The position numbers were made by a program, and so were the translations under genes. Shown in pieces: positions 35,253 through 38,873 of a stretch of DNA of 64,000 bases (its first letter is position 1; every line of letters begins with the position of its first letter). Below the pieces are notes generated by a model, which saw only the letters and a list, made by a program, of their open reading frames with translations, was not told the DNA's origin and did no database searches. This DNA comes from Roseicyclus persicicus. Lineage in GTDB: Bacteria; Pseudomonadota; Alphaproteobacteria; Rhodobacterales; Rhodobacteraceae. The stretch is taken from assembly GCF_012395815.1 (NCBI RefSeq), contig NZ_JAAZQQ010000001.1, forward strand, positions 496,001 through 560,000. Reading direction: 5' to 3'.

Positions 35253-35567
35253 ATGAAGGTCTACGGGTTGAAGAATTGCGACACGTGCCGGGCCGCGGTG
35301 GCGGCGCTGCCGGGGGCGGAGCTGGTGGATGTCCGGGCGCTGCCGTTGTCGGAGGCCGACCGCGCGCGGTTCCTGGCGGCGTTCGGCGACGCGCTGGTGA
35401 ACCGGCGGTCGACCACCTGGCGCGGGCTGTCCGAGGCCGAGCGTGCGGGCGATCCCGCGGCGCTGCTGGCGGCGCACCCGGCGCTGATGAAGCGGCCGGT
35501 GATCGAGGCGGGCGGGCGGCTCTACCTCGGCTGGGACGCGGGGGTGAAGGCGGCGCTGTTGCCCTGA
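35253..35567 (+). CDS. ArsC/Spx-like thioredoxin-fold reductase (YffB type)
   Basis: 104-residue protein of the ArsC/Spx family. The N-terminal MKVYGLKNCDTC (1-12) holds the CxxC active-site motif; NRRSTTWRGLS (about 50-60) and LMKRPVIEAGGRLYLGW (about 77-93) complete the family pattern. YffB-type proteins are glutathione-linked reductases of uncertain substrate; arsenate reduction cannot be claimed. The ATG follows AGAGGGGG. The last 46 nt overlap the convergent DoxX gene. Confidence 0.86.
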   Translation: MKVYGLKNCDTCRAAVAALPGAELVDVRALPLSEADRARFLAAFGDALVNRRSTTWRGLSEAERAGDPAALLAAHPALMKRPVIEAGGRLYLGWDAGVKAALLP

Positions 35568-36088
35568 CGGCGGGCGAGGAGCGCGTCGAGCGACAGCGGG
35601 CCCGCGCCCTTGAGCACCAGGAGGATCAGCGGCAGGAGCCACAGGAGGCGGGTGTCGACCAGCCCGTCGGCGTGCCGGTCGAAGGGCAGGCCGAGGGCGA
35701 CCCCGTGGCCCAGCACGTCGACCCAGGTCTGCACCAGCACGAAGCCGATCATGCCGAGCGCCGACAGCCGGGTCAGGAGGCCCAAGGCGAGCAGGACGGG
35801 CAGGATCAGCTCGGCCCAGGTGCCGGCGACGACGATGGCCGTGGCGAGCGGCCCCAGCGCCGAGGGGTTGTAGCCCGCCGCCTCGAAGGCGCGGGGCAGG
35901 ATCTGGATGTAGGCGCCGGGGTCGGGGCTGAAGGGGCCGTCGCCGATCTTGGTCAGGCCCGAGCGCCAGTAGTAGGGCAGAAGGACGGCGGCGAAGGTCA
36001 GCCGCGCCAGCGTGGGCAGGAGCGCGGGCGCAAGCCGGGCCTCGAGCGCGCCGAAGACGCGGGCATGGAGCTGGGTCAGGGCCTGCAT
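35522..36088 (-). CDS. DoxX family membrane protein (bufferin operon)
   Basis: 188-residue inner-membrane protein with four predicted helices (about 25-45, 80-100, 105-125, 145-165) and the DoxX pattern YYWRSGLTKIGDGPF (about 39-53), VVAGTWAELILPVLLALGL. It starts 11 nt after bufC and is the last gene of bufA-bufB-bufC-doxX. DoxX genes often accompany DUF692 maturation enzymes; a role in electron supply or quinone-linked redox is a guess. Its 3' end overlaps the convergent ArsC-like gene by 46 nt; both reading frames look real by homology. Confidence 0.88.
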   Translation of the reverse strand: MQALTQLHARVFGALEARLAPALLPTLARLTFAAVLLPYYWRSGLTKIGDGPFSPDPGAYIQILPRAFEAAGYNPSALGPLATAIVVAGTWAELILPVLLALGLLTRLSALGMIGFVLVQTWVDVLGHGVALGLPFDRHADGLVDTRLLWLLPLILLVLKGAGPLSLDALLARRQGNSAAFTPASQPR

Positions 36089-36099
36089 GGCCGGTCCTT

Positions 36100-36837
36100 T
36101 CAGGCGGGGTCGGGCGTGAGCGCGCCCGAGGTCAGGAACAGGGTCAGGAGGGCCGCGGCATCGGCCCCGGGGTGATCCGCCAGCGCGCGGGTCAGCGCCT
36201 CGGACAGCGTCAGCCGGCCCTTGAGCGCGCGGGCGAAGGTCAGCCCGCCGGGCGGCAGGAGATGCGGGGCCGGGTCGTAGCCCGCCCGCGCGATCAGCAC
36301 GTCCTCGGGGCCCGGCGCGGGTTTGGGCGCGTCCGGGGCGTGGCTGAAGCGCCAGATGCCGTGCACCGGGTGGCGCGAGGACAGGACCAGCGTGGCGGGC
36401 GCGAGGCGCGGCTTCAGCGCCAGCACGGCGGCAGGCGCAAGCCCCGCGGTGTCGAAGGGCGCGGCGTCGGCGGCGTGGTAGGATTGCCGAAGCCCGAGGT
36501 CGAGCCGGGCGATGTCGGCGAGGTAGGGCAGGCGCGCGAGCGGCGGGAACCCCGCGACGAACCCCGGAAAGGTGGTGCCCCAGCTGGCGAGGCGGGGATC
36601 GGAGGGCGGGTGGGCGCGCAGGAACACGCCGGCGAGCGCCTTGAAGTAGGCGTCGCCCACCAGCCTGCGGACGGTGGGAAAGCCGGTTTCCAGCGCCTCG
36701 GTCAGCGAGACCGCGACGTTGTTGCGGTAGACGTCGAAGCGCTTGCCCGCGGGGCCGCCGAACGGGTCGCGGAGCCCCTCGGGCACCGGGGCCGATGGGT
36801 CGAGCAGCGCGGCGGCAAAGGCGGTCTGGCCGGTCAT
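36100..36837 (-). CDS. bufC: DUF2063 partner protein of MNIO enzyme (BufC)
   Basis: 245-residue cytosolic protein. The N-terminal DUF2063 domain (about 5-95) shows [16 protein letters not shown] (about 34-49) and [13 protein letters not shown] (about 53-65). The C-terminal half is a less conserved beta-rich part that ends in Leu-rich helices. DUF2063 proteins form complexes with DUF692 (MNIO) oxidases and help bind the precursor peptide. The ATG overlaps the bufB stop by 4 nt (ATGA, 36834-36837). Confidence 0.9.
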
Positions 36838-37694
36838 CGCGCGGCCTCCACCGGCGAGAGGAGCGCGCCGGCGCGGGCGGCCTCGGCCATCAGCGTGGGC
36901 AGGGGCGGCACGTCGGTGTCCCATTCGATCAGCGTGGGGCGCGGGCCGCCGCGGGCGAGCGTGTGGGCGTAGAGCGCCCAGACGGCGCCGACCACGGGGC
37001 GGCCGTGGCTGTCGATCAGGAGCGGGCGGCCGTGCTCGTCGCGGTCCTCGTCATGGCCGCCGAGGTGGATCTCGCCCACCGCGTCCAGCGGGAAGGCGTC
37101 GATGTAGGCGCGGGCGTCCCAGCCCTGGTTGGTGGCCGAGACGAACACGTTGTTCACGTCGAGCAGCAGCCCGCAGCCGGTGCGGCGGGCGATCTCGGAC
37201 AGGAACTCGACCTCGGTCCGGTCGCTCTCGGCGAAGGCGAGGTAGGTGGCGGGGTTTTCCAGGAGCATCCGGCGGCCCAGCACCTCCTGCACGCGGTCGA
37301 TGTGGGTGCAGACGCGGGCGAGCGTGGCGTCGGTGTAGGGCAGGGGCAGCAGGTCGTTCAGGAAGCCCGTGTCATGGGTCGACCAGGCGAGGTGCTCGGA
37401 GAAGCTGGCCGGTTGCAGCCAGTCGCAGAGGTGGCGGAGGCGAGCGAGGTGGTCGGCGTCGAGCGGGCGTTCGCCGCCGATCGACAGGCCGACGCCGTGG
37501 ACGGAGATGGGGAAGCGCTCGGCCAGCGCGCGCAGTTGCGCCAGCGGGCGGCCGCCGGCGCCCAGGTAGTTCTCGGCGTGGATTTCCAGCCAGCGGACCG
37601 GGCCGGGGTCGGCCATGAGGCCCGCGAAATGCTGCGGCTTGTAGCCGAGGCCGGCGGCCAGCGGCAGGCGGCGGGGGGCGGCGGTGTCGAGCAT
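36834..37694 (-). CDS. bufB: Multinuclear non-haem iron oxidase (DUF692, BufB)
   Basis: 286-residue TIM-barrel enzyme of the MNIO/DUF692 family that modifies cysteines of ribosomal peptides. Metal-site candidates run through the chain: EIHAEN (37-42), H66 in SVHGVG, EH (100-101) in FSEHLAW, EN (146-147), DVNN (179-182), EIHLGGH (208-214), DSH (228-230) and E257/D259/D261 in LIEWDTD. The precursor gene bufA lies 65 nt upstream and bufC overlaps downstream. In the described bufferin pathway the enzyme makes thiooxazole-type groups from Cys and the product binds copper. Start ATG 37694. Confidence 0.92.
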
Positions 37695-37759
37695 GGGGCG
37701 CGGGTCCGGTGTGCGGAAGGGGGGTGCGCCGCCCCGGGGGCGGGGCGGCGCGGTCGGGC

Positions 37760-38143
37760 TCACATGTCGAGCATCGAGGCCAGCGCGTCGGGCGCCATGT
37801 AGGTCGCCACCACGTCCGCCGCGACGCCCTCGGGCAGGTCGCGGTTGATGCCGGCGTAGCCCCACTCGGTCAGCTGGGTGTCGGTCGCGGCCATGCGGCC
37901 GTCGGGCAGCTCGATGTCGTTGCAGGTGCCGGCGGGCACCAGCGTCCAGGCGTTGCCCTGGTAGTCGACGGTCGAGGTGCCGGCGCAGGTGGTGCCGGGG
38001 CCGGCGGCGCAGTCGTTCTCGCCGGCGAGGCTGGCGCCGAAGCATTTTTCCTGCTCCTGCGCCTGGGCGCCGGTCACGCCGTGGGCGGTCAGGGCGGCGG
38101 TCACGGCGCCGAGGAGGGCGAGGGATTTCGTGGCGGTGGTCAT
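37760..38143 (-). CDS. bufA1: Bufferin-type precursor (DUF2282) with C-terminal extension
   Basis: 127-residue precursor. The signal peptide (1-28, cleavage near AQAQ) is followed by a four-cysteine core: Cys 34 (EKCFG), 45 (ENDCAAG), 53 (TTCAGTS) and 74 (PAGTCND), the spacing of DUF2282/BufA1. Mature core Cys would be modified by BufB and the peptide exported, where it is thought to chelate copper. Members I recall end soon after the fourth Cys; here 53 further residues follow (75-127), with no Cys and net acidic, including [14 protein letters not shown] and a terminal ASMLDM. The gene heads the operon and is 65 nt from bufB. Confidence 0.88.
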
Positions 38144-38504
38144 GGGTCTTTGGCTCCCGTTCTGCGATGCGTGCAGGGTTCTGGTTGTGTGATCCGGGCG
38201 GCTGCACCGGATGGCATCACCCTGCGCCGGGGCTGCCATCAACAGCCAATCACGGCCCCGTGGGACACGCGGGCGTGACGCGCCGCGAGGGCCCCGTGAG
38301 GCGGGCCGGAGCGGGGCGCCACGGGAAATCAACGGGTTGCGTCGCGGATGCGGCAGGGGCGCTGACCTTGCCACCGGCGCGATGTGTCGGGCGGCAAGGG
38401 GGAGGCCGGGGGAATGTTTCACCGCGGCCGCAGCCGCACCCGGGCCTTTCACGGGCGCCCGTCCCCGACTATGTGAACGGGACGGCAGGACAGGAGGCAG
38501 AGAC
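38144..38504. other. 361-nt divergent intergenic region before bufA
   Basis: No gene seen. It should hold the bufA-operon promoter (minus) and the promoter of the membrane protein at 38505 (plus). I find no metal-responsive operator that I can name; GC is high and no A/T-rich box stands out. Confidence 0.4.
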
Positions 38505-38873
38505 ATGCGCAACGCGGCGCTGGTGCTGGGGCTGATCGGGGGCGTGCTCGCCATGGTGGTGGGCTTCTTCGTCTACGGCTACGTCGTGTTCATCGACTGG
38601 TTCGGCGAGGTGCCCGACCTCGCGCGGCAGGTCGAGGACCCGCAGATGAAGCAGGCGGTGTCAGTGATCGCGCCTCTGGTCGGGATCGCGGGCGGCGCCA
38701 TGGCGCGGGCGCGCGCGCTGTGGGGCGGGGTGCTGATGCTGCTGGCGGCGGGCGGCATCTGGCACGGGCTGGGCTTTGGCGTGTTCACCATCTTCCCGAT
38801 CGCCTGCCTGGGGCTCGGCGGCCTGCTGGCGCTGGCGGCGGGCAAGCCCGACGAGGAAAAGGCGCATTTCTGA
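38505..38873 (+). CDS. Hypothetical four-helix membrane protein
   Basis: 122 residues with hydrophobic stretches at about 3-26, 53-68, 70-88 and 93-112, and a polar loop (about 30-50, [17 protein letters not shown]). Family not recognised. Start ATG 38505 with AGGAGGCAG 6 nt before it. The stop is followed within 5 nt by a cluster of overlapping palindromes. Confidence 0.7.

Follow-up and report, generated by a model that had tools for sequence, protein, structure and literature searches.

The 64,000-nucleotide stretch of Roseicyclus persicicus DNA analyzed here (assembly GCF_012395815.1, contig NZ_JAAZQQ010000001.1, positions 496,001 to 560,000; hereafter the window) carries on its reverse strand an operon, bufA-bufB-bufC-doxX (35522–38143), which as judged from sequence is a standard Buf1-type bufferin cluster. 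Its precursor peptide, BufA, ends in a tail of 53 residues after the fourth Cys. In sequence comparisons this tail is a minority variant scattered among relatives, uncommon but not unique. Upstream of bufA lies a promoter element that appears typical of Rhodobacteraceae bufferin promoters in general, and its palindrome likely marks a regulon shared by bufA and exported-protein genes. In our view, the novelty of the tail is real but modest, and the promoter element and its shared use are the more useful lead. Bufferins are a recently described and very large family and, as far as the literature we found goes, the parts of the peptide beyond the four Cys, and the switch that controls it outside Caulobacter, have been little explored.

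The genes of the operon and the parts of the precursor are as follows.
37760..38143 (-): bufA, Buf1-type bufferin precursor, 127 aa plus stop (open reading frame, ORF; Pfam DUF2282, E 1.4e-22)
38060..38143 (-): putative signal peptide of BufA, residues 1–28, with AQA at the proposed cleavage site (by eye only)
37922..38044 (-): four-Cys core, C34 to C74 (translated ORF; pooled pN/pS 0.05 in seven long-tail genus members)
37763..37921 (-): 53-residue tail after the fourth Cys (translated ORF; alignment of relatives)
37850..37876 (-): 9-residue insert, residues 90–98, relative to ordinary short tails (alignment A3; AlphaFold2 model)
37763..37825 (-): distal add-on, residues 107–127, with Met116, Met124 and Met127 (alignment A3)
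36834..37694 (-): bufB, MNIO bufferin maturase, 286 aa (NCBIfam MNIO_BufB NF050167; match to 3bww)
36100..36837 (-): bufC, DUF2063 plus RRE-like partner protein, 245 aa (Pfam DUF2063; Foldseek of the model)
35522..36088 (-): doxX, DoxX membrane protein, 188 aa (Pfam DoxX, E 3.2e-9)

Bufferin gene set

Pfam, NCBIfam and the ORFs agreed with the preliminary description of this DNA on the extent and composition of the operon. Residues 32–79 of BufA matched Pfam DUF2282 at 79.8 bits (cut-off 22.4), with Cys at positions 34, 45, 53, and 74. The N-terminus showed an n-region, a hydrophobic stretch and the AQA site; this signal peptide, judged by eye only, is the one sequence feature of a Buf1-type cluster not also found by a score or a model. 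BufB scored 380.8 bits against NCBIfam MNIO_BufB NF050167 (curated cut-off 310) and aligned with the MNIO structure 3bww over residues 13–218 and 221–271 (E 5.2e-47). Its His/Asp/Glu motif residues were invariant or nearly so in 186 aligned BufB rows, the window's included, with H66, H101, E146, D179, H210, D228, H230, and E257 each at a frequency of 1.00. DoxX matched its Pfam family at 37.7 bits (cut-off 23.6).

BufC matched Pfam DUF2063 at 87.3 bits (cut-off 27.2). Its AlphaFold2 model (predicted local distance difference test, pLDDT, 94.1) resembled TglI (8hi7, E 5.9e-6) and 3dee (E 2.2e-4) in Foldseek, the latter being described as a DUF2063-RRE partner fold (PMC12452194). BufC is thus predicted to combine DUF2063 with an RRE fold, as a PME-type 1 partner does. 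The BufC sequence had no PDB match by phmmer at E < 0.1 or by profile at E < 0.01, and neither 8hi7 nor 3dee was recovered in this way. Family scores above the cut-offs, the 3bww match, and the predicted BufC fold all point to the bufferin gene set that had been proposed. Identity as an oxazolin (HvfABCX) system was rejected, as the scores for HvfC (38.9 bits, cut-off 142), HvfX (27.7, cut-off 80), and the PRK05409/HvfB family (236.3, cut-off 360) all fell below their cut-offs.

bufB starts 65 nt after the bufA stop. As first described, the bufC start (36837) overlaps the bufB stop by ATGA, and doxX follows bufC after 11 nt.

Distribution and history of the long tail

The translated ORF confirmed that no Cys occurs in the 53 residues past the fourth Cys. 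The preliminary description had called this tail unusual because short tails were taken to be the rule, and they are: ordinary tails have 17–30 residues, and long ones 40–70. We sampled 394 Rhodobacteraceae genomes, of which 279 carry DUF2282, and read precursors at 110 loci. These were taken from a list ranked by core score (its first 30 entries, then 80 from the rows that follow, with six listed genomes passed over), so they are not a random sample. Tails of at least 40 residues occurred in 7 of the 112 family precursors, and the remainder had 17–29 residues. Among 83 precursors from the 80 loci nearest to the extended set, which were chosen for likeness, 15 were long-tailed and the others had tails of 22–30 residues. 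Within the genus, bufA was present in 12 of 13 genomes, with tails of 53 (two, the window's included), 43 (three), 41 (one), 40 (one), and 22 residues (five).

A profile built from the tail only matched 19 of 390 genomes of the order, belonging to 10 of 139 genera, all in the Rhodobacteraceae and with the window's own genome among them; in the class it matched 1 of 385 genomes, again the window's own. Loci were read for 12 of the 19 matched genomes, and the core motif preceded the tail in 11; the twelfth locus (L210), missed by the core pattern, is the same gene as L136, where the core was found. The tail is thus a minority form that recurs in other genera of the family. The proviso that it would be ordinary if many DUF2282 proteins shared it holds in part, as seven of the 12 genus members are long-tailed, with long tails still in the minority overall.

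Two long-tail loci come from records named for other organisms, Novosphingobium sp. MW5 (L058) and Maritalea (L045). The L045 tail is identical to that of a Rhodobacteraceae genome (G406), and the bufA-bufB pair of L058 is very similar to a Pararhodobacter pair (L064), which suggests a recent transfer or a mislabelled contig. A search for the tail on plasmids gave a single match (E 0.6), a ParA protein, and was discounted.

The history of the tail was traced on a BufB tree of 99 rows, comprising 24 long-tail rows and 75 of 161 short-tail rows (the five from the genus were kept and the others drawn at random), with the 40-residue limit fixed ahead of the tree. The long label required 9 changes, compared with 21.8 for shuffled labels, and the starred branches alone force at least 2. 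A single clade of long tails was rejected (approximately unbiased test, p-AU 1e-52). Gain and loss are not separated by this tree; we infer repeated loss or recombination, because an insert motif this specific seems unlikely to have been invented several times over.

Tail anatomy

In alignment, the long tail matches a short tail apart from two additions: nine residues between 'GRMG' and 'RDLP', and an add-on past RDLP. The insert columns (residues 90–98) were gapped in 25 of the 41 rows of alignment A3, and the AlphaFold2 model of BufA placed a helix at residues 88–93. One P, one R, two G, and RDLP were invariant across the 22 long tails of alignment A2, while R83, R101, and D102 were invariant in all 41 rows of A3. 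Residues 71–127 were modelled with pLDDT 80–90, so the tail may pack.

The suggestion that the tail is a separate C-terminal domain did not survive these searches. No Pfam family matched more than one of the 22 tails (best E 0.038), PDB sequences gave one short weak match (E 0.031), and the sole Foldseek match of the BufA model to solved folds had an E-value of 7.5. Sequence comparison instead indicates an elaboration of the ordinary tail. We found no account of such a tail or of Met-rich bufferins in the literature, a search that is not proof that none is in print; the available text of PMC12452194 contains none of the terms 'C-terminal extension', 'Met-rich', and 'methionine'.

Promoter element upstream of bufA

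38245..38278 (-): promoter element made of a pair of TCACG-N4-CGTGA-like palindromes, spaced 15 bp apart, then TTGGC (23/23 specified bases)

A block with 21–23 of the 23 specified bases is common to the bufA upstream regions of all 12 genus sequences. In the genome, the 16-base double core was matched without mismatch only at the window's bufA; elsewhere it occurred at one place with one mismatch and at 14 with two, compared with 10 for the backward control. The element (at least 17/23 bases) was found in 120 of 190 non-redundant bufA upstream regions and in 0 of 190 shuffled ones. As the 23-base pattern was derived from the genus, we also counted without the 12 genus rows, which gave 108 of 178. 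Downstream of the element, TA-N3-T was moderately kept in the 120 aligned promoters (60–72% per base).

The element preceded 20 of 23 long-tail and 100 of 167 short-tail genes. We do not claim a link between tail type and promoter, because all 12 genus members carry the element, which by these counts is typical of the family's bufferin promoters and not of the long tail. Long and short tails thus occur in one genus with the same kind of promoter element, which makes the tail variant a natural comparison.

In Caulobacter, the sigma-F motif is GTAACC-N16-CGAA (PMC3511200). Upstream of the window's bufA, the best match to this Caulobacter consensus within 600 nt had 7 of 10 bases. At a threshold of at least 9/10, the motif was absent from all 120 promoters that carry the element and present in 17 of the 70 that lack it and in 3 of 190 shuffled sequences; the mutual exclusion gave a Fisher P of 1e-8, the rows being related. 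Fifteen of the 17 sigma-F-like promoters start with GTAAC, 74–105 nt from the start codon (GTAAC-N17-CGAA), and all 17 precede short-tail bufA genes. A further 53 promoters fit neither type. Bufferin control in the family seems, from these sequences, to be of at least two exclusive kinds.

A candidate regulon

The exact 14-base palindrome occurs at 8 sites in the genome, compared with 3.4 expected from the base composition of the window (P 0.02) and 0 for the reversed control. None of the eight is at bufA, where each palindrome differs by one base from the exact 14-mer. Five lie between called genes, two lie inside ORFs, and one, immediately ahead of a DUF305 gene, overlaps the end of the preceding ORF. 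By Pfam, the neighbouring genes include those for MsrA and for metallo-beta-lactamase-fold, DUF305, and FAS1 proteins, all with export signals judged by eye (L222–L228).

Across the genus, the palindrome (at least 9/10 bases) preceded 7/7 MsrA, 12/12 DUF305, and 8/8 FAS1 orthologues, the window's genome included, compared with 1.4%, 0.4%, and 0.6% of the respective shuffles. This amounts to 24/24 congeneric orthologues of three unlinked exported-protein genes, or 27/27 with the window's genome, with rows lacking the locus, weak DUF305 rows (L262–L264), and one short MsrA fragment left out. Before paralogues, scanned over 260 nt as compared with ~215 nt for orthologues, it was found in 1 of 12 FAS1 cases (one of them, L278, being masked and uninformative) and 0 of 12 MsrA cases. 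Because congeners share descent, the orthologue counts are not independent. The contrast between orthologues (27/27) and paralogues (1/24) is nonetheless stronger sequence evidence for the palindrome than the number of sites in the genome, and it suggests that the palindrome likely marks a regulon shared by bufA and the exported-protein genes. Such a palindrome offers a direct route to the regulator, and would link copper buffering with the repair of oxidized methionine in the envelope.

In Caulobacter, sigma-F controls the two bufferin operons together with a gene for a YedY-type oxidoreductase; msrA is reported as unaffected (PMC3511200). Photooxidative stress in Rhodobacter raises MsrA proteins and a fasciclin gene (PMC7074977), a paper whose available parts mention neither DUF2282, DUF692, nor copper.

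A Crp/Fnr-type gene (L290:5095-5682 (+)) adjoins this msrA in each of the seven genus genomes that yielded a complete or split copy of it. A 5-N4-5 palindrome is a Crp/Fnr-family site format, which makes the Crp/Fnr-type protein a candidate regulator and nothing firmer; its gene may instead serve the neighbouring small gene, which we take to be DUF2892. Upstream of the DUF305 gene, several of L250–L259 have a CTTCC...GGAAG-like repeat after the palindrome. We presume this repeat to resemble CueR sites, in which case it would tie the DUF305 gene to copper.

What the tail may do

The reading that we favour, and consider probable, is a Buf1 bufferin with a retained C-terminal appendage. BufC would hold the precursor mainly through its signal peptide, which in bufferin precursors acts as the leader (work cited in PMC13419390; PMC12452194). 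BufB would then act in the cytoplasm, converting the two middle Cys to thiooxazoles by oxidation; in published Buf1 peptides, the central Cys become thiooxazoles and the first and last are disulphide-bonded (PMC12452194). Sec would export and trim the peptide, excess copper would be chelated in the periplasm, and DoxX would assist. The 53-residue tail would remain on the mature peptide. It is built like an ordinary tail, with a short helix inserted ahead of the conserved RDLP and an end that is under loose constraint and often rich in Met. Most likely it would tune how stable the mature peptide is or how it handles metal, rather than serve in recognition.

This reading draws on relative constraint, measured as pooled ratios of nonsynonymous to synonymous polymorphism (pN/pS). 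Across the seven long-tail genus members, pN/pS was lowest in the core (0.05), higher in the signal peptide (0.21), and highest in the tail (0.71); the five whose tails have 40–43 residues showed the same order, at 0.025, 0.14, and 0.36. Because the tail exceeds the signal peptide in these members, it does not look like a conserved recognition element, and its looser constraint, together with the published leader role of the signal peptide, makes it more likely part of the mature peptide. Several observations weigh against this. In four short-tail genus members (a fifth, with an uncertain start, was dropped), the signal peptide (0.38) and tail (0.30) were about equal and the core stood at 0.18, and all ratios rest on few sites in close relatives. 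Confidence in the BufA model is only fair (mean pLDDT 70.7, predicted template modelling score 0.59, five models 57–71). The highly conserved RDLP of short and long tails could contact a partner, and proteolysis might simply remove the tail. That this peptide has modified Cys and binds copper is presumed by analogy with relatives.

Two further roles raised in the preliminary description, a removable follower and a partner-binding tail (here, one that would bind BufC during modification), have become quite improbable. Conservation of R and RDLP in short and long tails and the RRE-like domain of BufC would suit them. Against them, the signal peptide is under tighter constraint than the tail in the long-tail genus members, although not in the four short-tail ones; it is also the published leader (cited in PMC13419390), and five congeners have a short tail. 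Alternatively, the tail might have no function and reflect nearly neutral changes in length at the exposed end of the peptide. This accords with the tail pN/pS of 0.71 in long-tail members, lengths of 40–70 residues, and the patchy distribution, which takes 9 changes on the BufB tree. It fits poorly with an insert motif, L..xGY.G[IL].RDLP (with variants), that recurs in distant BufB lineages, with the lower pN/pS (0.36) in the five 40–43-residue members, and with a tail modelled at pLDDT 80–90; we consider it rather unlikely.

The distal tail might alternatively be a second metal site, with Met thioethers binding Cu(I) beside the thiooxazole core and the exported MsrA, which shares the palindrome, repairing the Met. 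In 22 unique distal parts of long tails, Met accounts for 49 of the 355 residues, but it makes up less than 1% of the last 20 residues of BufB (2/480), BufC (1/300), and DoxX (1/160) at long-tail loci, and 1.2–2.2% of these proteins as a whole. Several tail ends are YMPTMM-like or MMDDDMM-like, and the palindrome precedes exported MsrA in all 7 genus orthologues. Short tails are Met-rich too, however (7.4% overall; 197/3060 in the last 20 residues, compared with 48/440 for long-tail precursors), distal Met is missing from 3 of 24 long tails, and the window's tail has only three, spaced apart. The rows are also related, so the enrichment does not come from independent events. In addition, the Met/His-rich extension of C. 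sphaeroides PcuC did not coordinate copper in its structure, and its authors retain a model in which a second, low-affinity copper moves along the C-terminal extension (PMC12860648). We accept no Met function from enrichment alone; extra Cu(I) ligands in the Met-rich distal part are possible, and the full second-site reading is unlikely. More speculative still, and doubtful as a whole, is a scenario in which many Rhodobacteraceae bufferin operons left sigma-F-type control for an undescribed envelope-stress regulon (TCACG-N4-CGTGA) that also includes exported MsrA, DUF305, and FAS1 genes, the long tail being a Met-based Cu(I) extension kept reduced by MsrA and the Crp/Fnr-type protein beside msrA the candidate regulator.

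Other features of the locus

37726..37751 (-): 11-bp G+C hairpin between bufA and bufB (folding energy)

The 68-nt stretch between bufA and bufB, which includes the bufA stop codon, folds at -31.7 kcal/mol (z -2.5), and 49 of 73 related gaps had z < -2 compared with mononucleotide shuffles. The hairpin may shield bufA mRNA or dampen downstream expression. Using the window proteins as tblastn queries, we found bufB and bufC at 78 of 80 related loci; at the other two, the contig ends right after bufA. Recognizable doxX was found at 63 of the 80, some loci being incomplete. One DUF2282 locus and one MNIO locus were found in the whole assembly. Some relatives have tandem bufA copies (L118, L074, L075, L163). 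Divergent from the operon, 38504–38873 (+) encodes a hydrophobic protein of 123 aa that matched neither Pfam nor NCBIfam at E 1.

Comparison with known systems

The captophorins and the oxazolin system HvfABCX (PMC13097082, PMC13419390) share the cassette of MNIO, PME1, and DoxX-like proteins with this operon; the EGKCG repeats of oxazolins do not occur in the window's precursor. PcuC copper chaperones (PMC12860648) are periplasmic copper proteins with a Met/His-rich C-terminal extension, and so resemble BufA in having a Met-enriched tail, but have no family in common with it, and the published structure showed no copper on the PcuC tail. Closest are the Buf1 (DUF2282) bufferins of Caulobacter vibrioides and Cupriavidus metallidurans (PMC12452194), which have the same four-Cys DUF2282 core, BufB, DUF2063 partner, and DoxX, and a Sec signal peptide, judged by eye in the window. 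Here, no sigma factor or NrsF family was found in the eight neighbouring ORFs scanned, and the precursor differs in its tail of 53 residues, compared with 17–30 in ordinary members of the window's family.

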